Below are positions 16,865-38,305 of a stretch of 64,000 nt of DNA, piece after piece. Below the pieces are notes generated by a model, which did no database searches, was not told where the DNA came from, and saw only the letters and a program-made list of their open reading frames with translations. A program made the position numbers and the translations under genes. The stretch is from the NCBI RefSeq assembly GCF_028613635.1, contig NZ_JAQRMY010000002.1:558001-622000 (forward strand), read 5' to 3'. Origin of the DNA: Devosia sp. ZB163. Lineage in GTDB: Bacteria > Pseudomonadota > Alphaproteobacteria > Rhizobiales > Devosiaceae. The stretch's first letter is position 1. Each line of letters begins with the position of its first letter.

Positions 16865-17200
16865 TTCATACCTCCGAAGTGGGCCGCTTCCTGACCCCAT
16901 GCCTATCGGAAGTTAGGCGACGTTTTGCGCCGAGTCTTTAACGTGGCGGCACTTCAGCAGAGGTGTTGCAGTAGTGACAAAGAAGTGGCAAGTGTACACT
17001 ACCGTACTGCAGCGTAATACGAGTCTGAAAGACAATGAGAATTACAGTTGTGGCGCAGAAAAAAGCGACAGCAATGCTGCTGTGGATTGCGCGGTTTACG
17101 GCGCAAAGTTGATGAACGTCCAATTTACGCCAATATTTGCGCAATTTGTGACGATCCGTGGCGGAGTTGTGGCGGGCGTTAGAAAGCGTACGGAGATTGC
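16865..17200. promoter_or_regulatory. AT-richer upstream region of the outer-membrane protein gene
   Basis: About 330 bp, visibly richer in A and T than the surroundings between 16935 and 17180. It should hold the promoter of the minus-strand barrel gene. Short open frames exist on both strands, but none has a ribosome site or recognisable product. Confidence 0.35.
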
Positions 17201-17621: not shown

Positions 17622-17656
17622 AAAAGCGCCGCCGACCCGATTAGGGCAGGCGGCGC
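17622..17656 (-). terminator. Terminator of the alginate-type operon
   Basis: On the minus strand, GGCGCCGCC and its partner GGCGGCGC form an 8-bp GC stem around a 15-nt loop, followed at once by TTTTC. It begins about 20 nt after the algL-like stop and marks the end of the 16-kb operon. Confidence 0.75.
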
Positions 17657-17675: not shown

Positions 17676-18725
17676 TTAACCGGATACTGCCGGAAGCCGG
17701 GAAATCCAGTCCCCGATCCGGGTAAGGTTGCCGCCGAGCTTGGCATGGCCAAGCGGTCTCAGCCCGTCGACGAGCTCGTCCAGCGCCGGGTCCGGCTGGT
17801 GGCGGAGCAGGGGCTCCACCCAGGCGAGCATGAAGGGCTCGACTTCCTGCTTGCCGGTCTGGAACGTCTGCTCGACGCCGTTGATCTTCTGGACGATCGA
17901 CGGGTCGGCGAGGGCGGCCAGGCTGAAGCCGGCGATGCGCGCGAGGTTTCCGTCACAGGCGGCATATCCGTCATAGCCGGTGGCCTTGAGCAGGTCGGCC
18001 GTGACCACCAGCGGCGCGGTGGCATGGAGCTGGTAGTTCAGCGCCTTGTCGGCCCGGTTCATTTCGAGCGGCAGGCTGCCATCCGGGGCGGCCTGGCAGG
18101 CGACGAGCTCGAAGCTCTCCCTTGCCCAGTCGAGCGACGCAGCGTCGCCGTCGAGGCGGCCGATGGCTGCCGAAGCCAGCCCGGCCCAGGCGCGGAGGTT
18201 GTTGCGGCTGGCATTGCGCGGTGCCTCGGTGTCGAAGAACGCCCGCATGTCGGCGCCCGCATCGGAAAGCCAGTCGACCACCCGGGCACGCTTGACGGGA
18301 TCGAGCGCTCCCACGGTTTCGGCCTGGAGCAGCGCGATGGCTATGCCGGCATAGCGCGCCGGGATGGCGAGCTCGACATTGGCCGTCTCTAGGTTGGTCA
18401 GCGCCCCGGCGGCGGCCCACTGATCGAGCCAGTCTAGGACGCAGGACGCCCGGTTCGCGTCGGCGTTCACGAGCGCCGTGTTCGCCATCTTCATCAGCTC
18501 GCCGATGAACTTCTCGACCGGCTGCAGGGCCTTGTCGACGTCGGCGTTCGAAGTCTCGTCGATGTCGGAGCGGGTCTTGCTGTCGTCGGTGTAGCGCGAA
18601 CCGAAGCTGACGGCGATCACCGGCGAGGGGACCTCGGGGCAGGCGAAGGGTTTCTCCTCGGCGCGGGGAGCCGTCGCGCAGAGGAGAAGCGTCATCGCCA
18701 TCGCGATGCCAAAAGGAGTGTGCAT
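17676..18725 (-). CDS. algL: AlgL-like protein with altered active site
   Basis: A 349-residue periplasmic (signal peptide about 1-22) member of the alginate lyase AlgL family. In Pseudomonas AlgL degrades stray polymer in the periplasm. Family marks are FACPEVPSP, the SCVLDWLDQWAAAGALTN segment and DWARESFELVA. Where AlgL has the NNHSYW active site this protein has NNLRAW (175-180), so the catalytic His is Leu. In the RALxYHxYAL region it reads KALNYQLHA, so the usual Arg and second Tyr are Lys and His. It is probably not an active lyase. The start follows the algK-like stop by one base. Confidence 0.78.
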   Translation of the reverse strand: MHTPFGIAMAMTLLLCATAPRAEEKPFACPEVPSPVIAVSFGSRYTDDSKTRSDIDETSNADVDKALQPVEKFIGELMKMANTALVNADANRASCVLDWLDQWAAAGALTNLETANVELAIPARYAGIAIALLQAETVGALDPVKRARVVDWLSDAGADMRAFFDTEAPRNASRNNLRAWAGLASAAIGRLDGDAASLDWARESFELVACQAAPDGSLPLEMNRADKALNYQLHATAPLVVTADLLKATGYDGYAACDGNLARIAGFSLAALADPSIVQKINGVEQTFQTGKQEVEPFMLAWVEPLLRHQPDPALDELVDGLRPLGHAKLGGNLTRIGDWISRLPAVSG

Positions 18726-18726
18726 C

Positions 18727-21456
18727 TCAGTTCTCGACTGCCATTGATGTCAGGAGCTGCTGCGCCTCGGTGTTGCCGAGCCCGGCCGCGTCTTTCAGCA
18801 GCACCGTGGCCTGCTGGATCGAAGGCTCGATGCCGATGCCCATGGCGTAGGCCTTGGCGAGTTCGACCATGGCCGGCGCGTCGCCCGCCTCAGCCGCCCG
18901 CTTCAGCCATGAGCTGGCATCACGCGCCTCGGTCACGGTCGTGCCCGTCTGGCGCAGGTAGAGCGCCAGTTCGCGCATCGCCACGGCATCGCCCGAGGCG
19001 GCAGCGGCGGCATAGCGGGCCGACCAGTCGACCTCGTCCATCACCGCGGTCATGATCGCCGGAGGGGCTTTGAGTACCTTCTCGCGGATCTTGCTGAGGT
19101 CGGCGACCGGCGCGTCGTCGATCATGCGCTTGAACATCGCCACCGCCTTGGTGGGCGCGTAGTCCTCGCTGTCGGGGTCGGCATAGATCTTCACCAGCCG
19201 GCTTACCGCCGTGTCGTCGCCCAGTGCCACCGCCTGGTCGAACAGCTCGACGGCGGTCTTGGCCCGCTCCTCGCCGCCCATCGCCATGTAGCGGTCGGCG
19301 ATCGCCGTGTGGCGCCAGCCGTCGTCGCCCGCGAGCCGCAGGCTGACCTCGAGCCAGTGCTCGGTCTCGGCGTCGTCTGCCGTGGCAACGAAGGCGCCAG
19401 CCAGCTTGATCGTGTTCTCGAAGGTGCAATCCACTACGCTGGCGGCGCGGTACAGGTAGTCGTGCCGCTGCGCCTCGTCCTTGGTGTTGGACGCGGCAAA
19501 GATCAGCGCGTCCGCGTCGCCGCGATCCTCGATGGCCTGATGGTACTGCGCCAGGAGGTCGGCGTCGGTGACGCCCTCGGACTGCATGATCGGCAGCAGG
19601 CGGAGGATGGCCTCGCCGGAGCCCATCTGCGCTGCTTCGGTCAGGTAGCCGATGGCTTCCGTCCGCCGCTCCGCATCGCTGGGGAAGTAGTCCAGCAGCA
19701 CCGAGCCGAGATCTACGGCCGCACGCGGCAGACCCTCTTCACGGGCCCGCTTCAGAGCGGCGATGGTTTCCTCGATCACCTCGGGCGTGGGGGTGACGGT
19801 CAGGCGGTGCCGTGCCAGAGCGTCGACGGTCGCCGGCACCGGGTCGATGCGGGACTGCCAGAACGCCAGCATCTCGGGGCTGGCGCCGTTGCGCCCGAGA
19901 TAATCGAAATAGTAGGCCACCGAGTTCGGTCGACCGTAGAGCGCATGGGTCTGGAGCTTGGCCAGCGAGATCGGATCGGCACTCGGATCGAGCGCGCCGA
20001 TGTCGTCGGAATCCATGAACTCGGTCGAGTTGCCCGCTGCGTCTTCGGTGCGCTGCCAGAAGCCGGCGAGGCGCATATCCGCACCCTCCGGCGCACGGCA
20101 GAGGTAGGCCTGCCGCAGGTCGGTCATCGGGTCGATTTTGCCGGCATTGGTCACGGCGAAGCCGAGCAGTTCGGTCGCCCGCTCGAACAGGCCCGGCTCG
20201 TCGCGATGACGCAGCAGGATGAAGGCCAGTTCCTGCGCGGAGTCGGCGTCTTCGAGCGCCACGCCCTTTTCGAGCAGCGCCTTGGCCTCGGCTTCTCCGG
20301 CCCAGCGGCCCTTGTCGGTCAGCACGAGCTTGGCGAGCTTGGAGAATGCCCAGCCCGGCGGCTGCGACATGCCGACGAGCTCGGTGAGGCGCGCCTGGTA
20401 GGCCTGCTTCTTTTCCGGGATCGACTGCTCCTTCTCGAGCAGCGTCACCAGCCGGAACAGCGCGTTGCGGCTGCCGAGGTCGGACGCTTGGGCATAGAGC
20501 GCCTCGGCCCTGTTCTTGTCTTCTGGTACGAGAGCGCCGGCTTCGTAGAGCTTGCCCAATTCCACCTGCGCCGCGGCGACGCTGCGGTCCGATGCGAGGT
20601 TCAGGTACTTCAGCAGGCTGTCGTTGTTCTTGACGATCAGCTCGCTCTCGAGGTGGAGCTGCGCCACTTTCCAGGCCGCACTGGCGTCACCGAGATCGGC
20701 GGCGAGCCGCAGCCACTGCTCGGAGATGTTGTGGTCCTGCTTGACCACGAGGCCCTTGGAATACTCGCGGGCGATGCGGCCGATGCGGTCGCAGATGTCG
20801 GCGTCGAGCTTGCCCACGAGCGCGCCGAACGCCATCGTCACGGCGAGCTTGGGATCGAGCTCCCAGCCCGGCACCTGTTCGCCGTCGATGTTCATCGAGG
20901 CGAGGCGGAGCAGGGCATCGGCATTGCCGCCCATGGCCGCGCGGGTGAGGTAGCCGAGACCCTTCTCGCGGTCCTTCTTCACCACCAGCCCGTCGATGTA
21001 GAGCGTCGAGAGCAGGTTGAGCGCCTTGGGCGCGAGGCTGTCGGCATTGGTCTCCAGCCCTGCGATGACGCCGGTGTCGCGCAGCTGCGGCACCTTGCCG
21101 GCCTTGAGGTAGAGGTTGATCCGGTCGATCGAGGTGTCCGGCACCTTGGGCGCCGGCATCTTGCCAACGATCGCCAGCATCTTGTCGACCAGCTCGAAGT
21201 TGCCGGTCGGGTTGAGGTCGCGCAGGCGCCGCGCGTCGCGCAGCACCAGCTCCGGATCGCCCTCGGGCACGGAAGCTCCGTCCCACGCCTGCCAGCGCGC
21301 CACCACGTCGGGATCGGCCTTCTTGGCAACGCAGACTTCCTGCGCCGGGATCTCCGGCGGCAGGAAGGTCACATCGACAGGCGCCGCGACAGCGGCAGAC
21401 ACGAGACCTGAGCCGAGCAGCAGGGCAGTGGCGAGGCGGGGGACGAATGAGGGCAT
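18727..21456 (-). CDS. algK: AlgK-like Sel1/TPR periplasmic protein, very long
   Basis: A 909-residue secreted protein (signal peptide about 1-24, SAAVAAPVD) built almost wholly of helical Sel1/TPR-like repeats: GYLTRAAMGGNADALLRLA, LRLAADLGDASAAWKVAQL, LKRAAEAGDAPAMVELAKAY and others. AlgK of Pseudomonas is a repeat lipoprotein of about 475 residues that holds the export complex and AlgE porin. This one is nearly twice as long and has no lipobox, so it would not be lipid-anchored. Its place between algF and algL, plus its architecture, supports the AlgK assignment; the homology itself is weaker than for AlgD or Alg8. Confidence 0.65.
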   Translation of the reverse strand: MPSFVPRLATALLLGSGLVSAAVAAPVDVTFLPPEIPAQEVCVAKKADPDVVARWQAWDGASVPEGDPELVLRDARRLRDLNPTGNFELVDKMLAIVGKMPAPKVPDTSIDRINLYLKAGKVPQLRDTGVIAGLETNADSLAPKALNLLSTLYIDGLVVKKDREKGLGYLTRAAMGGNADALLRLASMNIDGEQVPGWELDPKLAVTMAFGALVGKLDADICDRIGRIAREYSKGLVVKQDHNISEQWLRLAADLGDASAAWKVAQLHLESELIVKNNDSLLKYLNLASDRSVAAAQVELGKLYEAGALVPEDKNRAEALYAQASDLGSRNALFRLVTLLEKEQSIPEKKQAYQARLTELVGMSQPPGWAFSKLAKLVLTDKGRWAGEAEAKALLEKGVALEDADSAQELAFILLRHRDEPGLFERATELLGFAVTNAGKIDPMTDLRQAYLCRAPEGADMRLAGFWQRTEDAAGNSTEFMDSDDIGALDPSADPISLAKLQTHALYGRPNSVAYYFDYLGRNGASPEMLAFWQSRIDPVPATVDALARHRLTVTPTPEVIEETIAALKRAREEGLPRAAVDLGSVLLDYFPSDAERRTEAIGYLTEAAQMGSGEAILRLLPIMQSEGVTDADLLAQYHQAIEDRGDADALIFAASNTKDEAQRHDYLYRAASVVDCTFENTIKLAGAFVATADDAETEHWLEVSLRLAGDDGWRHTAIADRYMAMGGEERAKTAVELFDQAVALGDDTAVSRLVKIYADPDSEDYAPTKAVAMFKRMIDDAPVADLSKIREKVLKAPPAIMTAVMDEVDWSARYAAAAASGDAVAMRELALYLRQTGTTVTEARDASSWLKRAAEAGDAPAMVELAKAYAMGIGIEPSIQQATVLLKDAAGLGNTEAQQLLTSMAVEN

Positions 21457-21477
21457 CTCAGCCTCCGATTGGCGCGA

Positions 21478-22119
21478 TTACTGCGCGCGGAAGAACGCGT
21501 TCTCGACGGCGGCAGCAGTGTAGGTGCCGTTCGAGCCGGTGAAGACGATGGAGACGCCGCCGCGGCGTTTGAGGTCGAGCGCGGCCACGGTGGCGACTGC
21601 CTCGCCGTCGGCCTGCACTTCGAAATCGAGCGTCAGCGGCGCCTTGAGCGCGACCGACTTGCCGGTGTCGCCAGCCACGGCTTCGATGGCCTTGGTCTTG
21701 GCCGCGGGCACGAACAGGTCGACGCTGGCGAGGTCGGAGAGGTTGTAGAAGTAGACGGTCGCCTTGCTCGGATCGGAGGCCGGATCGTCCTGCAGCACCA
21801 GCGGCTCGCCTTCGACGCTCCAGGCATAGGTGTAGTAGGCGCCGGGCGAGGTGGAGACCGAGCCGGAGACGTCGCCGGCCGAGACCGCGATATCGCCCGG
21901 CTGCACGTTCACATAGGGCGAGAGGCCGTCGGTGATGTCGTCGACAGTCGCGCCGTTGACCACGGCCACCGCGGCACCCGGCACCAGCACGCGCACGAAG
22001 GCGGAGTTCGGATCGACCGGGGCGTCGTACAGCCCGTCATCCTGCGCCATCGCCATCGGCGTGGCGCCGAGCAGCAGCAGGGTGGTCAGTGTGATGAGTT
22101 TGGGGGTTGAGCGCAGCAT
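21478..22119 (-). CDS. algF: Alginate O-acetylation protein AlgF-like
   Basis: A 213-residue periplasmic protein. The signal peptide (about 1-25) ends in AMAQ, and the mature start DGLYDAPVDPNSAFVRVL matches the AlgF hallmark. AlgF works with AlgI, AlgJ and AlgX in acetylating mannuronate residues. Start ATG 22119 is preceded by AAGGAG. The gene lies 13 bases after algX and 21 before algK. The all-beta look of the rest (two domains, ending VENAFFRAQ) fits the family. Confidence 0.8.
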   Translation of the reverse strand: MLRSTPKLITLTTLLLLGATPMAMAQDDGLYDAPVDPNSAFVRVLVPGAAVAVVNGATVDDITDGLSPYVNVQPGDIAVSAGDVSGSVSTSPGAYYTYAWSVEGEPLVLQDDPASDPSKATVYFYNLSDLASVDLFVPAAKTKAIEAVAGDTGKSVALKAPLTLDFEVQADGEAVATVAALDLKRRGGVSIVFTGSNGTYTAAAVENAFFRAQ

Positions 22120-22132
22120 CTGGCTCTCCTTC

Positions 22133-23473
22133 CTAGGTGTTGCACAGGGAGATCGCCGCCTTCTCTTCCGAGAGGCGATCGAACGTGATGGAGACCTTCG
22201 ACAGTTCGAGGCTGTCGAGGGACTCGAGCGGGATGAAGAACCGGCCGGTGCCGCGGAAGCGGTCGCCACGGTGGACTTCACGCGTGAAGGTGCGGCCGTC
22301 GGTGCTCTCGAAGTTGAGCACCACGTCGCGGCTGCCATCGTCACCGGCATCGGCGAGCAGCACCTGGTTCGGCGCGATCGGCGTGCCGGTGAGGTCGGCT
22401 TCGTAGAGGCCCTTCGCCCTGTCGACGACTGGCGCGTTGCCGACCGGCTGGCAGTCGTTGCGGGCCGCGGCGATCAGCTCGGTGAGCGAGCCGGTGCCGA
22501 ACTGGGCGAGGTTGTTGTAGATCGGGTTTTCCCACACGAGGAATTTCGGCCGGTTGGCCTGGAATTCGCGCGAGGTGAGGTACGAGGTGATGGCGCCGAA
22601 CTGGTTGCCGCCGGTGATCGCCATGTTGGCGACCGGCAGGCTCGCGTACTGGGCGAGAAAGCCCGAGAAGTTCGGGACCAGTGCATCGGAGAAGCTGGTG
22701 CCGACCAGCGCGATCTCGTCGTTGGTTGCGCCTTCCTCGGCGCCGCCGCTATCGCCGAAGATATCGAGGCTGGCGTCGGCACTGGCGACTTCCACCGTCT
22801 CGTAGGAGGTGCTGATCACCGGGGGCAGACTCTCGACGCAATAGGCCTGCAGCGTGCGGCGCATGCCGGAGACGGCCAGCTCGGCGCCGGTGGCCCTGGT
22901 CTCGTAGGTGACCGGCGTCACGTCGGCATAGGCCGGCAGCTGCTTGATCGTACCGCCGATGGTCTTTGCGGCGGTTTCGGCGCCGCGCGAGGTCCAGTGG
23001 AAGTCGGACTTGAAGAACGGCGGATCGTTGCCATCGGTGGTGCGGAGCGCCGAAAGCAGGTCGACCGCGATCACACCCTTGGCGTTGAGCCGCGCCACCT
23101 GGTCCTCGTAGACGGCAACCGCGACGTCCTCGTCGAAGCCGAAGAGCCGGGCTTCGTCGGGGAGGAAGGTCGGCAGCGTCACGCTCTTGGTCGGGATCGG
23201 CACGTAGAGCATGGTCGTGCCGTGCGCCTTCAGCGCCTCGGCGAGCTTGCCCATCTGCGTGGTCGTGTCCTCGGTGAACGGATGCTGCATGCGCAGGTCT
23301 GCGAAGATGCGGAAGAAGAACCCGTCGCGGCCTTCGACCGAAGGGAGGGTGGGGTTGTCCTCCAGATGCTTGCAGCCGAAGGCCGAGTTGGCGGCGAGGG
23401 CCGGGCTGGCGGAAAGCAGGGCAGCGAGGGCCGCGCCCAGCAGCAGGGACTTGTTCATGGCCAAGGTCCTCAT
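22133..23473 (-). CDS. algX: Alginate O-acetyltransferase AlgX-like
   Basis: A 446-residue periplasmic SGNH-type acetyltransferase that acetylates the polymer during export. After the signal peptide (to about 28), the Asp/His pair lies in KSDFHWTSRGAE (D157, H159) and the nucleophile in ALVGTSFSD (S260), so the catalytic triad looks intact. The C-terminal 100 residues are beta-rich, as in the carbohydrate-binding part of AlgX. The ATG at 23473 overlaps the stop of the preceding Sel1 gene as ATGA; ATG 23458 with GAGG upstream is an alternative. Confidence 0.82.
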   Translation of the reverse strand: MRTLAMNKSLLLGAALAALLSASPALAANSAFGCKHLEDNPTLPSVEGRDGFFFRIFADLRMQHPFTEDTTTQMGKLAEALKAHGTTMLYVPIPTKSVTLPTFLPDEARLFGFDEDVAVAVYEDQVARLNAKGVIAVDLLSALRTTDGNDPPFFKSDFHWTSRGAETAAKTIGGTIKQLPAYADVTPVTYETRATGAELAVSGMRRTLQAYCVESLPPVISTSYETVEVASADASLDIFGDSGGAEEGATNDEIALVGTSFSDALVPNFSGFLAQYASLPVANMAITGGNQFGAITSYLTSREFQANRPKFLVWENPIYNNLAQFGTGSLTELIAAARNDCQPVGNAPVVDRAKGLYEADLTGTPIAPNQVLLADAGDDGSRDVVLNFESTDGRTFTREVHRGDRFRGTGRFFIPLESLDSLELSKVSITFDRLSEEKAAISLCNT

Positions 23474-24264
23474 TGCAGTGTCTCCGTGGAGGCGGTGAGC
23501 TGTGGGTCGAGCGTGCGGAGGATGTTCTCCGCCATCGTTCGGATGTTGAGGGTTTCGGAGGTGGCGGCGATCCGGAGGTAGCCGCGGGCCTTGTCGATCT
23601 CGTCGGCGTCCGGTGTGCCCGAGAGCAGCTCGAAGGCGAGGTCCAGCGCCGCCTTGCTGTCGCCGGCTTCGGCCGAGGTGACGAGCAGGGTATCGGCGCG
23701 GGCGGGATCGAGCCCCAAGGGCTTGCCCTTGCGGTACATGGCGATGAGCGCGTCCCGGGCCACGGCATCGCCATCGGCGGCCAGCCGCTCGAGCTGCAGC
23801 TGGGCCGAGGCCCGATCCTCGAAGGAGGACAGCACCGCTCCGCCGTTGAGCACCCGGATCAGGGGGCGGAGGGCCGACGAACGGCCGTTCTCGAGCGCAA
23901 GCATGTAGTAGCGGGCAGCCGTGCCGAGCGTCTCGGGATCGTTGTCGGCCTCGATCCGCTTGGCGAGGTAGAACTGGGCGAGGTCGTCGCCGGAGTCGGC
24001 GAGCGTCTCGAGTTCCTTGTAGCTGACCTCCGCGCCGGCGATCACGCGGTTGCGGATCTCCTTCATCGGATCGACCGGCCTGGCCTGGCGGAGCTTCGAC
24101 CCTTTCTGGCCCTGCTTGCAGGGACCCGGCACCATGGGGCCGGAGCGTTCCGAGTCACTCGAGAGCGACGCCGGCACGCGCACCATGCAGGTTGCGCTGA
24201 CCGCCGGCGTTGCGATCGCAACGCCTGTCGCAACGAAGGCTGCGAGCGAGAGCGCGCGGATCAT
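23470..24264 (-). CDS. Sel1-repeat periplasmic protein within the alginate-type operon
   Basis: A 264-residue secreted protein (signal peptide ends AVSATC) with Sel1-like repeats: TLADSGDDLAQFYLAKRI, LERLAADGDAVARDALIA and TSAEAGDSKAALDLAFELL. It has no fixed counterpart in the Pseudomonas alginate operon. The start overlaps the algJ stop as ATGA and its stop overlaps algX the same way, so it is translated with the acetylation genes and may bridge AlgJ or AlgX to the large AlgK-like protein. GAGGAGG precedes the start. Confidence 0.72.
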   Translation of the reverse strand: MIRALSLAAFVATGVAIATPAVSATCMVRVPASLSSDSERSGPMVPGPCKQGQKGSKLRQARPVDPMKEIRNRVIAGAEVSYKELETLADSGDDLAQFYLAKRIEADNDPETLGTAARYYMLALENGRSSALRPLIRVLNGGAVLSSFEDRASAQLQLERLAADGDAVARDALIAMYRKGKPLGLDPARADTLLVTSAEAGDSKAALDLAFELLSGTPDADEIDKARGYLRIAATSETLNIRTMAENILRTLDPQLTASTETLQ

Positions 24265-25367
24265 TCGGTCGCCTCCTCGTTCCAGAGCTTGGTCTGGCCG
24301 AGGTAGCGCACCGGGAACTCCCAGATCACCACTTCGGGCGGGGTGTCGCGCAGCGTGTCGCTCTTGAGCAAGGCGCGCATCGGCGCGATCGGGCCCTTGC
24401 CCTCTTCGGCGAGGTTCAGCACGTCCGAGCCAAGCGCGACCTTGAGGCTTTCGCCGAAGCTCCACTGCGCGTTGGCGCTGTAGCTGGTGCCGGTGAGGAC
24501 GAACGGGATGGAGGAGGGTCCGAAGATGTCGGCGGGCGCGGCCTCATGGGGGGCGATGGCCTCGCGCGGCACGACAGTCTCCGGACCCAGACCGACGAGA
24601 GGTGCCAACCCGCCGGTAACGGTGAACTTCGAGAGGTCGCCTTCGCGCTCGACGGGAGCGGTATCGGCGATGGTGTAGGCGGCATCGCGCCTGCCGAGGG
24701 CTGCCCCCACCGCATCCGCCACCACCTCGGCGCCGAGCGGCGTCCAGTGGGTGTCGGTGGTGAGGAAAAGCGGGCCCTCGGCCTTGGCCTCGAGCAGCGG
24801 GGCGCGGGTCTCGATGCTGCGGATGCCCGCACGGTCGAGGACCGTGAGGAAATCTCCGTAGAGTCGCTCGAGATCGGTCGGGATCGCCGCGTAGCTCACA
24901 TGCTCGCGGTAGATGTCGGCCTTGGCCGGCAGCGGCACGACGACGAGTTCGATGCCCAGCGCCGCCAGCTGGTCGCGGATCGCCGTGACGCCGGCCGCGG
25001 CCTCGGCGAGATCGGGCGTGCGCATCAGCGTCGCCTCGAACTCCTCCTTCGAGAACAGCCAGCCGTCCTCGCCGACTACCACACCCGGACGTCCTTCGCG
25101 GAACGCGAGGTACCGGGCGGCGCCCATCGCGTCGACCGAAGGCAGCCGGTGCGGCATGATCTTCTTGTAGTAGGTGTCGATCTGATGGGCCGCTTCGCCG
25201 CTGAGATAGGCCGAGGCGGTCCTGGGCATCTCGGCGATGTCGCGGCCGAGCCCGGTGACGAACTCGTAGTTGGCGACGACCGCGTAGCCGAGGAACAGCA
25301 CCGGCAGCGCGAAGGCGGGCGCAACCGAGGCGAAGGTCTTGGCGGTGATGTTGGATTCAAAGGTCAT
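24261..25367 (-). CDS. algJ: Alginate O-acetyltransferase AlgJ-like
   Basis: A 368-residue membrane-anchored SGNH acetyltransferase. One hydrophobic segment at about 15-35 anchors it. The Asp/His pair is in TTDTHWTPLGAE (D205, H207) and the serine in LTGTSYSAN (S295), so the triad appears intact. In the known system AlgJ takes acetyl groups from AlgI to the periplasmic side. I chose ATG 25367, eight bases after algI, because the frame upstream is only the shadow of algI. GAGG lies before it. Confidence 0.83.
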   Translation of the reverse strand: MTFESNITAKTFASVAPAFALPVLFLGYAVVANYEFVTGLGRDIAEMPRTASAYLSGEAAHQIDTYYKKIMPHRLPSVDAMGAARYLAFREGRPGVVVGEDGWLFSKEEFEATLMRTPDLAEAAAGVTAIRDQLAALGIELVVVPLPAKADIYREHVSYAAIPTDLERLYGDFLTVLDRAGIRSIETRAPLLEAKAEGPLFLTTDTHWTPLGAEVVADAVGAALGRRDAAYTIADTAPVEREGDLSKFTVTGGLAPLVGLGPETVVPREAIAPHEAAPADIFGPSSIPFVLTGTSYSANAQWSFGESLKVALGSDVLNLAEEGKGPIAPMRALLKSDTLRDTPPEVVIWEFPVRYLGQTKLWNEEATE

Positions 25368-25375
25368 TTCCGGCC

Positions 25376-26806: not shown

Positions 26807-28326
26807 CAGGCATCTCCCTCGAAGGTACAGCTGGTGGGACGCAGGGCGCCGGTGGGTGTGAGCTTGGCGCCGGCCTTGAGCTGCAGGCCGTCGATGATCG
26901 TCGGCGTGCTGTCGGTGGCGCTGAGGTTGAAGAACCGATCGGTGAACTGCACCAGCTCGCCATCGAGCAGGCGCGGTGCCTGGCCGGTGAAATCGTTCAT
27001 GGCGAACTGCAGCCGCGCCGTGGTCGAGCCCTTGATGCCGACGCGGTTGCCGTCGAGCTCGTTCGACGCGATCTCGATCACCCCGTAATCGGGCTGGTGC
27101 GTCACGCTGATCCCGGCATTGCCGTTGTCGATCAGCCGGTTGGCGCTGACCCTGAGCCCGGCGCTGTCGCGGACCGCGAGGCCCGACTGGGCGTTCTGCA
27201 GCAGGAGGTTCCCGGCGACGTCGATGCAGTCGGCCGAGGTGATGGAGACGCCGGAGCGCTTGCTGCCGGCGATCAGGTTGTCCTCGATCCTGAGGTTGGC
27301 GGCGCCCGCGTCGGCGAAGATGCCATTGAGCCCGGCGTCGATGACGATGTTGCCCGAGACCTCGACCGCGATTGCCCCGCCGGTAACCTTGATGCCGTGG
27401 GTAGCGGGGCCGGCGAGGACGACGTTGCCGCGGGCGGCGATATCCTTGCCGCCGTTGAGCAGCAGCGCGGGGCCGGAGGAGGGGCCGAACACGTTGCCAT
27501 CGACGATTGCCTCGTCGGCATCGACCAGCGCGAGGGAGCCGACATTGTCGAAGCGGCTGTCGCGCACCACCGAGGGCGAGGGGTTGGCGTAGAAGCCGCC
27601 TTCGAGAATGGTGACCCCGGTCAGCGGCGGGAACAGCCCGTACCCGAGATCGGCAAACGTCATCCGCTCGAGCCTGGCGCTGCCCGAGAGCGCGACCACG
27701 ACGAACGGGTTGAAATCCTTGAGGCGCGGGTTGGGTTCGCCCGTTCCGGCGATCCCGGCGGCATTGCCGACGAGGTTCCCCGATGCGAGGAGGAAGGCGC
27801 CGGAGGAGCGATCGAGCAGCAGAGTTTCGCCCGGCTGCAGCGATAGCGTCGCGCCGTTCCACACCGCGATCGGCAGGTGGGCGACATAGCCGGCTTCGGT
27901 CTTGTCGATCAGGCCGGCAAGCCCGGCCGCGGTAACCGTTTCATGGAGCTGCGCGAGGCTGGTGACGCCGGCTTCGACCAGCAGCACTTCCGGCTTCGCC
28001 TGCGCCTGCCGAAGGGCCACGTGATAGTTGGCGCCTGCCTGCAGCGCGAGCTGGCTCAGCACCAGGTCGATCGAGACGACGCTGACCTTCGCCCCGCCGA
28101 GTGCCGGTTCATTGGCAGGTTTCGGCTCGGCTGCCGCATAGCTGAATCCGAGAGGCGCGGCCGCCGACTGGAGGTCGGTGGCAGGACGGCCGGCCTCGAC
28201 CATCGCCGCAAGGGCGGCGACGGTCTTTTCGTAGGCGAGGGTCCGCGCGTAGTCAGCCCCCGTGGCGGCCCAAGGGAGAGAGCATGCCGCGGCGGCAAGA
28301 CCTGCGCAGACCCACGCCCTACGCAT
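26806..28326 (-). CDS. algG: AlgG-like parallel beta-helix protein lacking the DPHD motif
   Basis: A 506-residue periplasmic protein (signal peptide about 1-23) with right-handed beta-helix repeats from about 190 to 440, of the kind found in mannuronan C5-epimerase AlgG, such as RIEDNLIAGSKRSGVSI and RVSANRLIDNGNAGISV. AlgG converts mannuronate to guluronate using a DPHD tetrad. I find no DPHD or close variant; the coil just before THGIKVTG, where the tetrad should lie, reads ALLLNGGKD. It may shield polymer from degradation, a second role of AlgG, without epimerising it. It overlaps algA by eight bases and precedes algI. Confidence 0.7.
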   Translation of the reverse strand: MRRAWVCAGLAAAACSLPWAATGADYARTLAYEKTVAALAAMVEAGRPATDLQSAAAPLGFSYAAAEPKPANEPALGGAKVSVVSIDLVLSQLALQAGANYHVALRQAQAKPEVLLVEAGVTSLAQLHETVTAAGLAGLIDKTEAGYVAHLPIAVWNGATLSLQPGETLLLDRSSGAFLLASGNLVGNAAGIAGTGEPNPRLKDFNPFVVVALSGSARLERMTFADLGYGLFPPLTGVTILEGGFYANPSPSVVRDSRFDNVGSLALVDADEAIVDGNVFGPSSGPALLLNGGKDIAARGNVVLAGPATHGIKVTGGAIAVEVSGNIVIDAGLNGIFADAGAANLRIEDNLIAGSKRSGVSITSADCIDVAGNLLLQNAQSGLAVRDSAGLRVSANRLIDNGNAGISVTHQPDYGVIEIASNELDGNRVGIKGSTTARLQFAMNDFTGQAPRLLDGELVQFTDRFFNLSATDSTPTIIDGLQLKAGAKLTPTGALRPTSCTFEGDA

Positions 28327-29755
28327 GTTCGCGGCTCCCGTCGGCGACCGCTGCGAGTTCCAGCAGCGGTGTGAGGTGCGTCAGGGGGCCGTCCACATGG
28401 CAGGCGACCTCGATGACCTGCATCGGGCCTGTGCCGTCATTGATAACGTCGGCGGTCTGTTCCGGGCCGATCTCGAAGGTGGCGCCGGCGCGGATCTCGC
28501 GGCGGCGACTGCCCATGTGCAGCATGCCGCCACCGGAGGCGACGACCATCAGTCGCCGGAACTCCGAGCCGCTCTCCACTGGCAGCGTCGCGCCGGGGTT
28601 CACTGTGAGATGGCGGAGCATGTAGCCGGCGCCGGAGGCGAGCTTGCCCTGCTTGCCCCAGTCCGTGGCGCCGACCGAGTGGTCCTCGGCCTCGCGGCGG
28701 TTCTGCGCCTTGAGCTGCTCGACGATCGTCTTGACGTTCTGCGACTGGTCGCGCGTCGTCACCAGCAGCGCGTCGTGGGTATCGACCACCACGAGGTTGT
28801 CGACGCCGACCACGGCGACCAGCCGGTCCGAGCCGCGGACATAGGTGTCGCGCGAGTTGACCATCATCACGTCGCCGCTGACGACGTTGTTGTCCTCGGA
28901 CTTCTTGCCGATGGTGTGGAACGCCGCCCAGGCGCCCACGTCGTCCCATTCGACATCGGCCGGCGCCAGCGCGACGGACCTCGACTTCTCGAACACCGCC
29001 CGCTCGGTGGGGAGGCTCTCGGCCGAGCCGAAACTCGCTTCCTCGAGCAGCAGGGCCCCGTCCTCGTTCCGGGCGTTGGCCAGCGAGGCGCTGACGGCGC
29101 CGAAGGTCACCGGATCGAACCGGCGATACTCCTCGATCACCGTGTCGGCCCGCATCAGCGAGATGCCCGAGGCCCAGTAGGCGAGGCCGGTCTCGATCAG
29201 CGACTGCGCGGTCTGCGCGTTGGGCTTTTCGATGAACTTCTCGGCCCGGTGCACGCCGCGATAGTTCGAGAACTCGCCGCCATCGATGATGTAGCCGTAG
29301 CCCGTCTCGTTGTAGCGCGGCTTGATGCCGAACGTGACGATCAGGCCGTCCATCGCCGCCTTGTGCGATTCCCGGATACGCGAGTTGAGGTCGCCCTCGA
29401 TCACGTGGTCGGACGGGCAGATCAGCATCACCGCGTCGGGATCGGTGCGGGCGATCAGCAGCGCTGCAGAGAGCACCGCCGGCCCGGTATTGCGCGCCAC
29501 CGGCTCGGCGATGATCCGCGCATTGCGCTGTACATCGCGAAGCTGGCGACGGACCGTGCCCAGGTGCCCGCTGGCGACCGACACCACGGGATCGTGGAAC
29601 AGTTCGCCCCGGTGCCGCTGCACGGTGGTCTGGAAGAAGGTGATCGAGCCCTCATGGTCGATCGGCTGGAACTGTTTCGGTTGCTGGCTGCGGGACAACG
29701 GCCAAAGCCGCGTACCCACGCCTCCGCAAAGCACGACTGGATGGATGGCGTTCAT
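28319..29755 (-). CDS. algA: Mannose-1-phosphate guanylyltransferase, degenerate isomerase domain
   Basis: A 478-residue AlgA/ManC-type protein producing GDP-mannose. The guanylyltransferase half is intact: CGGVGTRLWPLSRSQQPKQF (about 10-29), FIEKPNAQTAQ and VEWDDVGAWAAF. The C-terminal cupin half normally isomerises fructose-6-phosphate through a zinc site in a QMHHHRAEHW block. Here the aligned segment (about 387-406) reads PGATLPVESGSEFRRLMVV, without histidines, so isomerase activity is probably lost and mannose-6-phosphate must come from another enzyme. It starts one base after alg44. Confidence 0.85.
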   Translation of the reverse strand: MNAIHPVVLCGGVGTRLWPLSRSQQPKQFQPIDHEGSITFFQTTVQRHRGELFHDPVVSVASGHLGTVRRQLRDVQRNARIIAEPVARNTGPAVLSAALLIARTDPDAVMLICPSDHVIEGDLNSRIRESHKAAMDGLIVTFGIKPRYNETGYGYIIDGGEFSNYRGVHRAEKFIEKPNAQTAQSLIETGLAYWASGISLMRADTVIEEYRRFDPVTFGAVSASLANARNEDGALLLEEASFGSAESLPTERAVFEKSRSVALAPADVEWDDVGAWAAFHTIGKKSEDNNVVSGDVMMVNSRDTYVRGSDRLVAVVGVDNLVVVDTHDALLVTTRDQSQNVKTIVEQLKAQNRREAEDHSVGATDWGKQGKLASGAGYMLRHLTVNPGATLPVESGSEFRRLMVVASGGGMLHMGSRRREIRAGATFEIGPEQTADVINDGTGPMQVIEVACHVDGPLTHLTPLLELAAVADGSREHA

Positions 29756-29756
29756 C

Positions 29757-30905
29757 TTAGTGGCCCTCGTTCGCCGGTCCGTTGAAGGAGAAGAACCGTC
29801 CCACCGCCGCCAGCGGGTCGGATTTGATCAGCACGTCGACCGGCGACCCCACGGTGCTCGGGTTGAGCGCAGTGGCCGGCACGAGCGTGACCGGGATTGC
29901 CGTGCCGTCCGTGGCACTCCGCAGCAGTCCCGGCAGTTCCTTGGCATCGAGCGTCGCGGTGGTGACGGCGCCGCTCGGCATGTGCACCTCGGCATGGGCG
30001 CCGGAGGCGAGTGCCCTCAGCCCGTTGCCGTCGACCTTCGAAGAGATGACGACCGGTGCCTCCTTGGGCGCGACGGTCATCACGGTGTCGCCGGCCAGCA
30101 CCGTGGCGCCGCCCTGGGCCGAGCCGGGTGCGACGACGCAGTCGCACGGCATCGATACGGCGAGCACTTCGCCCGAGGTGGTGCGGATGGCGAAGGCGAT
30201 CTCGCCCTTGGTCGCGGCAGGATTGACGAAGTCGAGCTGGCCCGGGCTGATGGCCCTGAGGTCCATGCCATCAAGCGTGATGGTGGAGAGACTGGTGACC
30301 GGCAGCACGAACAGCCGCTCGTAGAGCTTCACGCCAACGAAGCCGACCAGCAGCAGGCCGAGGCCGGCGAAGGCGCCCCAGCGGATGCCGGTCATGATGC
30401 CCTGTGTGGCCGACGGCTTGGCGTTCGGTGCCTCGCTGCGCGCCCTCTCCGGCCTGTCGGCGGTGCGGATCAGCCCGTCGACCCCGACGAGTTCGCCGCC
30501 GACGACGGAGTTGAGGATGTAGCGCAGCTGCGGCAGGTGCGGGCCGGTGGGCTCGAGGAAGCGCAGCGTCACTGTGCCGGCTTCGGGGGAGCCGGCGCCG
30601 ATCGCAGCGTCCACCGGCAGGCTGATGGCGTAGCCGGGGAAGTTGAACACCAGCGTCACCAGCTGCACGCGGCCGTGCAGTTGCGGGTCGATCAGCCCGG
30701 TGGCTTCCGCCCCGACGATGCTGAGCGCGTGGCCCTGGAAGGAGCGGCCGTTGATGATGACGTTGAACGGCAGCCGGATGACCGGGTGTTCGCCGTGCAC
30801 GGCGGGTTCGGCCGCCACCGGGGCAGGCGAGGCGCTTCTCGTGGCTTTTGGTTTGTCGAGTTCTGCATGCGCTTCGGTCATTGCTGGTGAGCCCTCAGTT
30901 GGCAT
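29757..30905 (-). CDS. alg44: Alg44-like PilZ/membrane-fusion protein
   Basis: A 382-residue inner-membrane protein with the order of Pseudomonas Alg44: cytoplasmic PilZ-like domain (about 38-140), one membrane helix (about 177-197) and a periplasmic HlyD-like part with the MPCDC motif (254-256) also found in Alg44. Alg44 activates the polymerase Alg8 when its PilZ domain binds c-di-GMP via RxxxR and DxSxxG. Here the aligned stretches read GEHPV and SIVGAEA, so neither motif is present. It overlaps alg8 by 11 bases. Confidence 0.8.
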   Translation of the reverse strand: MPTEGSPAMTEAHAELDKPKATRSASPAPVAAEPAVHGEHPVIRLPFNVIINGRSFQGHALSIVGAEATGLIDPQLHGRVQLVTLVFNFPGYAISLPVDAAIGAGSPEAGTVTLRFLEPTGPHLPQLRYILNSVVGGELVGVDGLIRTADRPERARSEAPNAKPSATQGIMTGIRWGAFAGLGLLLVGFVGVKLYERLFVLPVTSLSTITLDGMDLRAISPGQLDFVNPAATKGEIAFAIRTTSGEVLAVSMPCDCVVAPGSAQGGATVLAGDTVMTVAPKEAPVVISSKVDGNGLRALASGAHAEVHMPSGAVTTATLDAKELPGLLRSATDGTAIPVTLVPATALNPSTVGSPVDVLIKSDPLAAVGRFFSFNGPANEGH

Positions 30906-32382
30906 GGATCGGGAAGGGGCTGAGGAGCCCCGTGACGAAGATCACTCCGGCGACCAGCAGGCCCAGGGCGAGCACGTGCATGTAGCTGGAGCTGATGGCG
31001 CGGACCCGCCCCGCGCGGCCGGCGCTGTTGTTCACGCTGGTCGCCGACTGGCGGGTCCAGCGCTGGCGGTCGAGGCGGAACATGACCGAGGTCTTGATCG
31101 CGGCGCCGAACAGCTGGCCGAAGTAAAGCAGGAACGGGTAGGTGATCGGGAACGGGCCGCCGAAGCTGGCGAGCAGCCAGCAATAGGCGTAGCGGGTGGC
31201 CATCACCCAGGCGATGTAGGCGACCGCGATCAGCGGATCGACGAACACCGAGAAGAGCACGATGCCGACCGGCGCCGTCAGCGTCGTCCACATCGAGACG
31301 CGCTGGTCGAGGATCGACCACCAGGCGAAGGGTCCGATTCTCGTCGGCGACAGTGCCAGGGCCCGGCCATTGGTGCGCAGCATGTTACCGAACCAGCGGC
31401 GCATCAGCGTGACGGCGCTCTCGATGAAGCCGGGCTTGGGCTGGGTCTCCATCGAGACGCAGGCGACGTCCGGCAGGTAGGCCATCTCGTAGCCGTGCTT
31501 GAGCAGCCAGAACCAGGTCGACTTGTCGTCGCCGGTGAGGAACTTCACCCGGCCCAGGCGCCAGTGATCGATGTAGTCCTGCTCGACCGAAGCGATGAAC
31601 TCGGGGTTGGTGGCGAGATCGGCGCGGAACACCGACATGCGGCCGGTGAGGGTCAGCACGCGGCGGCCGAGCGCCACCGCCGACATCATCATCTGGCGCT
31701 GGGTGAAGCGCAGCTTGAACCAGTCGCGGAACAGCGGGGTGTCGTCGATCTCGGCGCGCTCGTGCGTGGTCAGTGCCCCGACCTTGCCGTTGGCGAAGAA
31801 CGGCGCGGCGCGCTCGACGATGTCCTCGGGGATCTGAGTGTCGCCGTCGATCAGCAGCACGACGTCATCGGCGCTGGGATAGCGGCGGGCGATGGAGCGC
31901 AGCGAGGTGGCGAGCGCGTCGCGCTTGCCGGTGCCGTCGATGCGATCGATGACAACCTCGACGGTGTTGGTGCCGGCGAGAACCTGTGCAGCGACGGCGC
32001 GGATCAGCCGCTCGTCGGCGAGATCGACCACCGAGGCGACGACCGTCGAGCCGCCGGGGGAGCGCCGGGCTGCCAGAAAGATCGAGCGGTAGACGCGCGA
32101 GGTGATCGCGGCCTCGATCTTGTAGCTGGTGGCGAGGAAGAAGGCGTGCGCCGGCCGCCTGGCGGCGTAGAGCGCCTCGGCGGCAGCACGCCGCCGAGGA
32201 TAAGCGATGCGGATGTAGACGTGCGCACGCACGAAGTTGACCAGCGCCCAGCTGTAGCGCCAGAGCCCGATCACCCCGAGGGTGAGGAACACCCCGGCGC
32301 CGCCCGAGAAGGCGGATGCCGGTACGGTGCTGGCGATGGCCGCGGCCGAGAGGACGTAGATGGCGTGCGCAAAGGGGTTCAT
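30895..32382 (-). CDS. alg8: Alginate polymerase glycosyltransferase Alg8
   Basis: A 495-residue inner-membrane GT2 glycosyltransferase, the same length as Pseudomonas Alg8, which polymerises mannuronate from GDP-mannuronate. Two N-terminal helices, a cytoplasmic GT domain with LLIDGD (176-181), FLTGDDKSTWFWLLKHGYEM from 281 and MRRWFGNMLRTNGRAL near 327-342, then several C-terminal helices. These blocks are close to those of known Alg8 and clearly distinguish it from cellulose or hyaluronan synthases. It starts five bases after algD. Confidence 0.92.
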   Translation of the reverse strand: MNPFAHAIYVLSAAAIASTVPASAFSGGAGVFLTLGVIGLWRYSWALVNFVRAHVYIRIAYPRRRAAAEALYAARRPAHAFFLATSYKIEAAITSRVYRSIFLAARRSPGGSTVVASVVDLADERLIRAVAAQVLAGTNTVEVVIDRIDGTGKRDALATSLRSIARRYPSADDVVLLIDGDTQIPEDIVERAAPFFANGKVGALTTHERAEIDDTPLFRDWFKLRFTQRQMMMSAVALGRRVLTLTGRMSVFRADLATNPEFIASVEQDYIDHWRLGRVKFLTGDDKSTWFWLLKHGYEMAYLPDVACVSMETQPKPGFIESAVTLMRRWFGNMLRTNGRALALSPTRIGPFAWWSILDQRVSMWTTLTAPVGIVLFSVFVDPLIAVAYIAWVMATRYAYCWLLASFGGPFPITYPFLLYFGQLFGAAIKTSVMFRLDRQRWTRQSATSVNNSAGRAGRVRAISSSYMHVLALGLLVAGVIFVTGLLSPFPIHAN

Positions 32383-32387
32383 GGCGA

Positions 32388-33707
32388 CTACCAGCAGATG
32401 CCTTCGTAGGTGCCGTTGGAGCGCAGCGAGGCGTTGATGCGCGTCAGGTCGACCAGCGAGCGGTACTCGCTCACCGCGTTGAGCGGCGCGATGGTCTCCT
32501 CGTAGCGGTTGCCCACGAGGATCACATCGGAGGACGAGATCAGGTCCTCGATCCTGCCGACGAGGCGGGCCGGCAGGTCCGGCACCACGTCGTTGCCGCG
32601 ACCCATGGCGCTGACCCCGCCGGCGACGGCCTGCGAGACGTAGGGGTCATAGACGCGGAGCTCGAGGCCCTTGCTGATCAGCCGGCTCGCAAGTTCCGCC
32701 AGCGGGCTTTCGCGCAGGTCGTCAGTACCGGGCTTGAAGGCGATGCCGACGAGGCCCACCGACTTGGCGCCGGAGTTGGCGACCATGGTCTCGGCCCGGT
32801 CGATCTGCGCCGCATTGGCGACCAGCACCGAGTCGAGGAGTGGCGAGGAGACGCCCTTCTTCGCGGCGAGATGCTGTAGCGCACGGACGTCCTTGGGCAG
32901 GCACGAGCCGCCGAAGGCGAAGCCCGGCTTCATGAAGTAGGGCGAGATGTTCACCTTGGTGTCGGCGCAGATGAGCTTCATCACCTGCTGGCCGTCGACG
33001 CCCGAGGCCTTGGCGATGTTGCCGATTTCGTTGGCGAAGGTGACCTTCACGGCGCGCCAGGAATTGGACGCATACTTCACCGCCTCGGCGGTCTTCAGCG
33101 TCACCACGTGCGAAGGCACGGGCATCTCGGCGTTGATGTCCTTGAGGATCTGCGCGGTGCGGTCTTCGAGCGCGCCGAAGACGATCAGGCCCGGATCGTA
33201 ATAGTCGGCGATCGCCGTGCTCTCGCGCAGGAACTCGGGGTAGTAGCCGACGCCGAACCCCTGGCCGGCGACCATGCCGCTCGCTTCCTCGAGCACCGGG
33301 ATGCAGGTCTCGTCCATGGTGCCGGGCACGATGGTCGAGCGGATGATCACCGAATGGAAGCTCTGCTTGTGGCGGATCGCCTGGCCGATGTCGGCGCAGA
33401 CACCCTTCACGTATTTGAGCCCGACGGCGCCGGTCTCGTCGCTCGGCGTGCCGACGCAGACGAAGCTGGCGTCGGTATCGAGCACGGCCTGCTGGCCGTC
33501 GGTGGTGGCACGCAGCCGGCCCGACGCCACGGCGCGGGCGATGATCTCGTCGAGCCCGTTTTCGACAATGGGGGAGAGCCCCGCATTGACGGCGTCGACC
33601 TTTGCCGGATCGAGGTCGACTGCGATCACCTCGTGACCGTCGTCCGCGAGGCAGGCGGCGGACACGACCCCGACATAACCGATTCCAAAGACGCTGATTT
33701 TGGCCAC
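32388..33707 (-). CDS. algD: GDP-mannose 6-dehydrogenase
   Basis: A 439-residue cytoplasmic dehydrogenase oxidising GDP-mannose to GDP-mannuronate, the committed step of alginate synthesis. N-terminal Rossmann motif FGIGYVGVV (7-15), catalytic cysteine C269 in FGGSCLPKDVRAL, and FKPGTDDLRESPL in the C-terminal domain. The last residues, EGICW, match the end of Pseudomonas AlgD, which favours GDP-mannose over UDP-glucose as substrate. It is the first gene of the operon and is preceded by nearly 800 bp without a convincing gene. Confidence 0.94.
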   Translation of the reverse strand: MAKISVFGIGYVGVVSAACLADDGHEVIAVDLDPAKVDAVNAGLSPIVENGLDEIIARAVASGRLRATTDGQQAVLDTDASFVCVGTPSDETGAVGLKYVKGVCADIGQAIRHKQSFHSVIIRSTIVPGTMDETCIPVLEEASGMVAGQGFGVGYYPEFLRESTAIADYYDPGLIVFGALEDRTAQILKDINAEMPVPSHVVTLKTAEAVKYASNSWRAVKVTFANEIGNIAKASGVDGQQVMKLICADTKVNISPYFMKPGFAFGGSCLPKDVRALQHLAAKKGVSSPLLDSVLVANAAQIDRAETMVANSGAKSVGLVGIAFKPGTDDLRESPLAELASRLISKGLELRVYDPYVSQAVAGGVSAMGRGNDVVPDLPARLVGRIEDLISSSDVILVGNRYEETIAPLNAVSEYRSLVDLTRINASLRSNGTYEGICW

Positions 33708-37816: not shown

Positions 37817-38305
37817 CCAGTACCTCCTGTTGAATTCGGAGGCAGCGACGGTTCGTCTGGGCGTTTGACCCCTGTCCATGCGCAGTGTTCCGCCTGTCGG
37901 CGGATCGTCAGAAACAGCTCGTTCCGGGCATGGATGCCCTGCCGACGCTTCGCTTTCCTCCACACTTGGCAGGTCTGAGCGAGTGCAATTCCAGCAGCAC
38001 AGAGTTGGGGTTGCACCAGGTCAAACCACCAATCGCGGCAGCCTAGAGCGGGCCCGGGTTGCGGTCAATCTCGGCAGGCGAACGCCCGGAGAGAGACACC
38101 GCCGGCGCTCCGATAGTTTGAGTCAAATGTCACAGTACCTATTGAGTAGTCGCCACGGTCTGAAATAGGGTCGAGCTTGCGACTAATACTTCCGGTGGCC
38201 TGACATTTGAGCCGCCCGCCTCGCATAGCCTCTCATCTCTACAGACTGCACCCAGGTAACTCACCCAACAGCCCGACATTGCGTCGGGTCCCGAAGGAGT
38301 TTGCG
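37817..38305. promoter_or_regulatory. Divergent control region with nested inverted repeats
   Basis: 489 bp between two divergent genes for secreted proteins. At 38123-38132 and 38201-38210 lie exact inverted arms TCAAATGTCA/TGACATTTGA. Inside them, TAGTCGC (38147-38153) pairs with GCGACTA (38179-38185). This is 95-180 bp before the GTG of the downstream operon and looks like an operator cluster or a structured leader. Confidence 0.5.

Follow-up and report, generated by a model that had tools for sequence, protein, structure and literature searches.

What polymer would be made by an alginate-type operon in which the polymerase and acetylation proteins keep their catalytic residues, and the counterparts of AlgG, AlgL and Alg44 are without key residues of their own? 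The question is raised by a twelve-gene cluster of Devosia sp. ZB163, which lies within the 64,000-nucleotide stretch of DNA analysed here (the window). Comparison of sequences suggests that the window probably directs the synthesis of an O-acetylated mannuronan without guluronate, with AlgG acting as a non-catalytic guide, Alg44 not serving as a c-di-GMP switch, and no recognised AlgE.

Organisation of the operon

32388..33707, minus strand: AlgD, GDP-mannose 6-dehydrogenase, 439 aa; GGSCLPK (Cys269) and C-terminal EGICW; match to 1mfz over residues 3-439
30895..32382, minus strand: Alg8, GT2 polymannuronate polymerase, 495 aa; DGD, TGDDKS and RRWFGNMLR retained
29757..30905, minus strand: Alg44-like co-polymerase, 382 aa; HlyD-like C-terminal region, N-terminal region without RxxxR
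30768..30794, minus strand: GEHPVIRLP, aligned at the place of canonical Alg44 RQHARVKIP
28319..29755, minus strand: AlgA, mannose-1-phosphate guanylyltransferase/mannose-6-phosphate isomerase, 478 aa; TIGR01479 378.7 bits, cut-off 372.95
26806..28326, minus strand: AlgG-like putative pseudo-epimerase, 506 aa; signal peptide (by eye), right-handed beta-helix
27448..27474, minus strand: GPALLLNGG, aligned at the place of epimerase YGIDPHDRS
25376..26806, minus strand: AlgI, MBOAT O-acetyltransferase, 476 aa; Pfam MBOAT
24261..25367, minus strand: AlgJ, SGNH-like acetyltransferase, 368 aa; DTHW and GTSYS kept, Pfam match on a 529 aa open reading frame containing AlgJ
23470..24264, minus strand: 264 aa protein, a conserved neighbour with a signal peptide (by eye)
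22133..23473, minus strand: AlgX, acetyltransferase, 446 aa; DFHW and GTSFS kept
21478..22119, minus strand: AlgF, 213 aa; PF11182 41 bits, cut-off 34.4
18727..21456, minus strand: AlgK-like Sel1-repeat scaffold, 909 aa; all-helical model (pLDDT 88.0), no beta-barrel, no lipobox seen by eye
17676..18725, minus strand: AlgL-like PL5 protein, 349 aa; PF05426 104.8 bits
18186..18203, minus strand: NNLRAW, aligned at the place of active PL5 NNHxYW (catalytic His to Leu)
17622..17656, minus strand: probable terminator, read from the sequence; GC-rich hairpin GCGCCGCC...GGCGGCGC, then TTTT

The twelve open reading frames occupy positions 17676-33707 of the minus strand, with AlgD (GTG start at 33707) first and AlgL (stop at 17676) last. 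At six of the eleven junctions the genes stand 1 to 21 bases apart, and at the other five they overlap by 1 to 11 bases, in agreement with the tight packing (gaps of 21 bases or less, or overlaps) described in the first-pass annotation; the terminator it placed at the end of the operon corresponds to the GC-rich hairpin and T run at about 17656-17622, and its remark that the gene order is unlike that of Pseudomonas is borne out by comparison with canonical operons. None of the twelve frames is interrupted, each gene has a dN/dS below 1, and the identical order recurs in Devosia relatives and in one other family of the order. Rates of evolution are higher for AlgL and the 264 aa protein than for most other genes of the operon.

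Pfam and NCBIfam matches were obtained for an AlgD-type dehydrogenase, GT2, GMP-PMI, ALGX domains (AlgJ and AlgX), AlgF, PL5 lyase and MBOAT, and the identities of AlgD, Alg8, AlgA, AlgI, AlgJ, AlgX and AlgF are firm. Most of the gene names proposed earlier stand. The labels AlgK-like and AlgG-like are weak by sequence, the latter protein scoring 41.8 bits against an NCBIfam equivalog cut-off of 700, but its predicted fold then confirmed it as AlgG. The 264 aa protein had been called a Sel1 protein; searched against Pfam at E 0.01 it gave no match. The description of the operon as a complete alginate operon has to be given up, as an AlgE match is absent genome-wide and AlgG, AlgL and Alg44 are without key residues.

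With regard to precursor supply, AlgD retains the Cys269 and EGICW on which its naming had been based and scores 447 bits against the GDP-mannose dehydrogenase 1mfz, compared with 252 for the best UDP-glucose dehydrogenase, a best match to the latter class being the outcome that would have spoken against the name. Judged by firm homology, AlgA and AlgD, together with a phosphomannomutase from another genomic locus, would supply GDP-mannuronate, which Alg8 with Alg44 would polymerise to beta-1,4-mannuronan and move into the periplasm. The earlier assignment of Alg8 is upheld by its catalytic motifs, its GT2 match and 41-44% identity to gammaproteobacterial Alg8, and that of AlgI by its MBOAT match and two WHG motifs. 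The catalytic residues of AlgX and AlgJ (Asp-x-His and Ser) are present in the window's operon, and AlgI, AlgJ, AlgX and AlgF may together O-acetylate the mannuronan. The acetylated mannuronate polymer proposed at first pass is thus what the gene identities would predict.

Altered residues across an alphaproteobacterial clade

The operon belongs to one alphaproteobacterial operon clade, here named type A, which is found in Devosia, Rhizobiaceae and Rhodobacterales and is marked by losses of functional residues. The motifs concerned (RxxxR in Alg44, DPHD in AlgG and NNH in AlgL) are kept in gammaproteobacterial operons and in a second alphaproteobacterial group, type B, which is the sister group of type A in an Alg8 tree of 53 rows. 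This tree comprised seven type B rows, three gammaproteobacterial rows, 19 of the 53 A1, 17 of the 24 A2 and seven new rows; the six type A rows that had no subclass and two outgroup-like ones were not included. The genome scan took the best 80 of at least 555 relatives, and the counts describe this best-matching part of the family. Genome repeats (L046, L047, L096, L124), stretch L036, the partial locus L044 and the non-Alg8-like L035 and L037 were dropped before counting, and bacterium CCMM004 enters as two loci (L095, L100). The first-pass annotation mentioned neither the residue losses nor membership of a widespread clade. In the distant locus L186 (genome G642) DPHD and RxxxR were absent by regular expression.

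For DPHD the type A count was 0 of 73; six DPHD strings met in a six-frame reading of type A loci were unlike YGIDPHDRSH and were judged to be chance. None of the 67 aligned type A rows has the epimerase-site Tyr, the His of DPHD or the Arg that comes after it, and no ionisable residue is invariant. Other site residues are scattered (the later His in 17 rows, the SRE Arg in 5, and of the two DPHD Asp residues the second in 7 and the first in 1) and D445, an Asp outside the DPHD motif, is nearly invariant, so by sequence a changed AlgG active site could still be accommodated. It is proposed that AlgG is a non-catalytic beta-helix which, with AlgX and the Sel1-repeat protein, would guide and protect the chain; guluronate would then not be made. 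A search of the Devosia genome with the AlgG model NF038177 matched this AlgG alone. The polymer might still be a substrate for a C5-epimerase from a different family.

AlgL retains the Arg and Tyr of the PL5 active site, and its His is replaced by Leu. NNH occurs in none of 53 type A AlgL sequences; the altered site is common to all 53 and carries a conserved new motif, NLRAW. This substitution is no proof of an inactive lyase, since P. aeruginosa AlgL H202A, whose activity was undetectable in vitro, is reported to behave as wild type in cells (PMC8829089). The protein may still act as a lyase, slowly or in an altered way, or may serve for binding.

No PilZ domain was matched by Pfam in Alg44, the HlyD_3 match is below its cut-off, and RxxxR, the c-di-GMP motif, is absent from all 74 type A Alg44 sequences. 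Type A Alg44 would therefore no longer bind c-di-GMP through this motif, which makes transcriptional control more likely, and indirect c-di-GMP control may also operate. As P. aeruginosa Alg44 mutants unable to bind c-di-GMP are reported to make no alginate (PMC8461298), type A systems would need another means of activating Alg8.

AlgI, AlgJ and AlgF have been lost twice within type A. Where they are lost (A2), the catalytic His of AlgX is present in 0 of 24 alignment rows, against 51 of 51 elsewhere, which fits a loss of catalysis with the structure retained; 23 of these 24 rows still have the Asp of DxH, a point on the other side. Three loci need separate mention: in the type B AlgX of L034 Asp and His are present and Ser is misaligned, in L058 AlgX is cut short, and in L092 AlgI was split or merged in picking open reading frames.

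The export route

The AlgK-like protein is mainly a Sel1-repeat match, with 28.8 bits to NCBIfam AlgK (cut-off 700); the AlgK structure 7ula matched it at E 7e-4, last of 19 matches, and the rows listed by Foldseek for its model were Sel1 and other helical-repeat proteins. A hidden barrel in this protein was rejected, the model being without any strand of three or more residues. The AlgE porin model (PF13372), which a divergent porin would escape, gave no match in the whole genome at E 0.001. The idea that AlgE is merely undetectable in alphaproteobacteria is weakened by a sample of 337 alphaproteobacterial genomes, 57 of which score above the PF13372 cut-off. The same was found in six of the 20 sampled that have an Alg8-like gene (Devosia sp. 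ZB163 excluded): in four the match is on another contig, and the remaining two, G751 and G846, carry it within 10 kb of Alg8. At the G751 locus DPHD, NNH and DxHW are intact, and Alg44 is without RxxxR by simple regular expression; in G846 RxxxR of Alg44 and DxHW of AlgX are present, and neither AlgG nor AlgL was recovered. Without a recognised AlgE, the chain would cross the outer membrane by another route or stay in the periplasm.

Alternative readings and known systems

It is possible that the window holds an ordinary alginate operon whose AlgG, AlgL and Alg44 have diverged strongly yet still function, their catalytic or ligand residues having moved, and in which an unrecognised porin replaces AlgE. 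Gene content and the retained residues of polymerase and acetylation proteins speak for this, as do the Arg and Tyr of AlgL, a motif, NLRAW, that is new and conserved instead of drifting, and the one nearly invariant Asp of AlgG. We nevertheless consider it unlikely: Tyr, DPHD His and following Arg are missing from 67 of 67 type A AlgG rows with no ionisable residue invariant, and AlgX has also lost its His in lineages without AlgI, AlgJ and AlgF. Still less probable is that AlgD and Alg8 homologues were recruited for a different uronic-acid polymer, the change of substrate having cost AlgG and AlgL their alginate residues. The clade-wide alteration of AlgL, and the concentration of AlgG, AlgL and Alg44 changes in one clade, would suit such a history, whereas the Cys and EGICW of AlgD, its far closer match to GDP-mannose than UDP-glucose dehydrogenase, an AlgA above the GMP/PMI cut-off and the resemblance of Alg8 to the Pseudomonas type point away from it. 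That the operon is a degenerating relic might be suspected from the several lost motifs and from the patchy occurrence of Alg8 (11 of 61 genomes searched, that of Devosia sp. ZB163 included), but we regard this as highly improbable; it was rejected on dN/dS and on a gene order conserved across families, and all frames are open and the losses are common to a clade that retains the genes.

Beyond the guluronate-free O-acetylated mannuronan proposed for the window, we suggest more tentatively, and with slightly less than even confidence, that pure mannuronan is the native product of a large clade of alphaproteobacteria. Its modifying proteins would have been turned stepwise into a non-catalytic conduit, with AlgG silent throughout, AlgL altered and AlgX silent twice where acetylation was lost; Alg44 would provide no c-di-GMP switch, and the polymer would be exported without AlgE or retained in the periplasm. 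The distinction between enzymatic and structural need for AlgG, AlgX and AlgL has so far been argued from Pseudomonas mutants. Evolution appears to have split the two roles, as these proteins stay under selection after losing active residues, the AlgX His lost in both lineages without AlgI, AlgJ and AlgF being part of that apparent separation. Natural mannuronan producers are predicted and a sharp question is posed, namely how the outer membrane is crossed without a recognisable AlgE; both points are approachable in named strains such as Devosia sp. Root413D1 and Marinovum algicola FF3.

No published description of this variant was found in the open-access literature, a scope that leaves most subscription journals outside. 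With the canonical operon of Pseudomonas and Azotobacter (L140, L141, L144) the window shares homologues of AlgD, Alg8, Alg44, AlgG, AlgX, AlgL, AlgI, AlgJ, AlgF and AlgA in one operon and, in L140 and L141, a helical-repeat protein in the AlgK position. It differs in gene order, in having no AlgE, in the altered residues of Alg44, AlgG and AlgL, in an extra 264 aa protein, and in a 909 aa Sel1 protein without visible lipobox where canonical AlgK has about 465-500 aa. Type B operons (L034, L042/L124, L043, L115, L116, L123, L125, L142) likewise encode long Sel1-repeat proteins and gave no AlgE match over cut-off in the six loci searched (two from one species); unlike type A they keep RxxxR (7 of 8 rows), DPHD (DAHD or DSHD in Microvirga) and NNH, and their AlgG, with a long N-terminal part, has 790-1691 aa.

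One reported alphaproteobacterial genome has five alginate genes, algE among them (PMC9238374). A survey describes divergent alginate operons lacking algKE or modification loci, with examples in deep-sea bacteria (PMC7112194); the word alphaproteobacteria is absent from its main text, and its passages on these operons describe no catalytic-residue loss. According to a 2015 review, mannuronan-producing organisms were not known in nature, and mannuronan is secreted by epimerase-defective laboratory algG mutants (PMC4444821). Type A would share with these mutants an AlgG that is present but non-catalytic and, as predicted here, a guluronate-free polymer, while being natural and clade-wide, with no recognised AlgE and an Alg44 without RxxxR. 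This suggests that nature may make the one-sugar alginate known only from laboratory mutants.

Operon layout and clade membership

The first-pass annotation had described twelve minus-strand genes, and all of these are present, following one another from 33707 to 17676 with gaps of 21 bases or less or short overlaps. Their order is algD-alg8-alg44-algA-algG-algI-algJ-(264 aa protein)-algX-algF-algK-like-algL-like, and a GC-rich hairpin and a T run close the operon. Three PGM/PMM matches lie outside the operon in the same genome. The operon and other genes of the window are as follows.

17676-33707, minus strand: the twelve-gene alg operon
16055-16900, minus strand: outer-membrane beta-barrel protein of 281 aa (OMP_b-brl match of 64 bits), encoded downstream of the terminator that closes the operon
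10503-13336, plus strand: PAPS-reductase-domain protein, then a fused EF-Tu-like GTPase/APS kinase; the two look like an ordinary sulfate assimilation pair
38207-42246, plus strand: 824 aa ORF with no Pfam match at E 0.001, overlapping the 5' end of the gene for a beta-helix protein of 522 aa

The 281 aa beta-barrel protein was considered as an exporter and set aside, because relatives of it are found near some Devosia operons only.

Alg8 loci were taken from a species-genome scan (the best 80 of at least 555 relatives), in which the locus records carry names from Rhodobacterales and Rhizobiales groups, and gene orders were mapped over these and over loci from other searches. Three groups were named. 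Type A1 has the window-like order D-8-44-A-G-I-J-264aa-X-F-K-L, type A2 the same order without I, J and F, and type B a long AlgG and other Sel1 proteins. The non-redundant set of loci comprises 54 A1, 24 A2, 6 unclassified A and 7 B. Type A formed a single clade with support of 100/100 in a careful Alg8 tree of 53 rows, and appeared as one change in a tree of 95 rows. In 42 of 99 stretches (38 A1, 4 unclassified A) a gene from a single sequence cluster is located close to algD, mostly directly upstream; the only member of the cluster that was scanned is a LuxR-type regulator, and the window has no gene of this cluster.

Comparison of the window with four Devosia relatives gave dN/dS below 1 for all twelve genes, including AlgG (0.15-0.44) and AlgL (0.21-0.29), with the highest values in the 264 aa protein (0.34-0.62). 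The genes of the operon are kept by selection.

Catalytic and regulatory sites in AlgG, Alg44 and AlgL

In AlgG of the window GPALLLNGG stands at the site of YGIDPHDRS, and the downstream SREV stretch is also gone. The His of DPHD is probably the proton abstractor, with participation of Tyr and Arg, according to PMC4444821. DPHD, or DAHD/DSHD in its place, is missing from every type A AlgG with a length of 450 aa or more (73 proteins), whereas all six type B proteins have the motif. Judged by the columns of an alignment, the Tyr and the His are both there in 9/9 references and 7/7 type B rows, and neither is found in any of 67 type A rows; stray site residues in those 67 are the second Asp (7), the first Asp (1), the later His (17) and the SRE Arg (5). 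Among 60 type A AlgGs, 15 columns are invariant and contain solely Gly, Phe, Leu, Asn, Gln, Pro and Cys, while the nearly invariant columns include one Asp, D445. This conservation is as expected of a structural beta-helix, though an altered active site is an alternative. The fold of AlgG, which we count among our observations, is a predicted one. Type B AlgGs, for example that at L116:12638-16378, have a long N-terminal part before the beta-helix, helical and repeat-like by eye, and the longest ORF has 1691 aa (locus L043).

Alg44 of the window has GEHPVIRLP in place of RQHARVKIP, with no RxxxR and no PilZ match. RxxxR was found in 0/74 type A, 7/8 type B and 3/3 gammaproteobacterial sequences. 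This motif binds c-di-GMP, and non-binding mutants of P. aeruginosa make no alginate (PMC8461298); type A would therefore need other activation. Three loci of one family (L184, L187 and L192; f232) carry Alg8-like and Alg44-like genes with RxxxR by regular expression and no other recognised alg genes within 20 kb, and are perhaps concerned with a different c-di-GMP-controlled polymer. At a distant Alg8 locus, L186, AlgG lacks DPHD and Alg44 fails the RxxxR expression, which may represent losses that occurred in parallel with those of type A.

In AlgL of the window NNLRAW replaces NNHxYW, so that the catalytic His is Leu; Arg and Tyr are kept. NNH is absent from all 30 type A AlgLs but present in 5/5 of type B. 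It is likewise absent from the AlgL found directly past the operon stretch in 23 further A1 genomes, and NLR is found in 23/23; two of these genomes contain, between them, three additional PL5 matches with NNH intact, which serve as an internal control. We call the window AlgL altered, not dead, because P. aeruginosa AlgL H202A, with undetectable activity in vitro, behaves like wild type in cells (PMC8829089). Two Rhizobium genomes have extra PL5 lyase genes with NNH intact (L176, L177, L178) in addition to the copy in the type A operon.

The AlgG, AlgL and Alg44 losses are the mark of one clade, type A.

Acetylation genes and the outer-membrane porin

Type A2 is a second, independent step with two origins, in Rhodobacterales and in Martelella. 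AlgX retains Asp, His and Ser in all 51 A1 proteins examined; in 24 A2 proteins His is found in none, Asp in 23 and Ser at the aligned column in two. Of 14 A2 genomes, 13 yielded no AlgI at any location; the exception has an A1 operon as well, and AlgI was found in 3/3 A1 control genomes. In the exception, Rhodobacteraceae bacterium CCMM004 (L095, L100), the A2 AlgX is without His despite AlgI from the other operon. A2 AlgX is nevertheless present, so its retention outlasts the catalytic His. This agrees with the deletions reported in PMC9734138, in which secretion was unaffected by loss of AlgI, J or F and compromised by loss of AlgX.

The AlgE porin (PF13372) has no match in the window's genome at E 0.001. 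Searched genome-wide, one of 38 other type A genomes (G615; 50.6 and 37.3 bits) exceeded the cut-off, as did none of six type B handles, two of which are one species, and both gammaproteobacterial controls. Members occur in 57 of 337 sampled alphaproteobacteria. In two alphaproteobacterial genomes (G751, G846), which the tree places in neither type A nor type B, the porin lies within 10 kb of Alg8. Some alphaproteobacterial alg loci therefore do have AlgE, and those of type A do not belong to them.

Proposed pathway and relation to known alginate operons

Beside what was observed, namely gene content, motif losses, the predicted AlgG fold, the clade-wide pattern and selection, a pathway can be proposed. 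AlgA, AlgD and a phosphomannomutase would supply GDP-mannuronate, and Alg8/Alg44 would polymerise it without the RxxxR switch. The polymer would be acetylated by AlgI/J/F/X and may be guided by AlgG, AlgX and the Sel1 protein, and guluronate would not be made.

Searches of an open-access library gave no description of catalytic residues lost together throughout a clade in this way. Atypical operons that lost algKE are mentioned in a survey (PMC7112194), so the absence of AlgE has precedent. The window operon resembles the alginate operon family in its precursor, polymerase and acetylation modules, but differs from it at the c-di-GMP and epimerase sites, both of which are lost, and in having no recognised AlgE.
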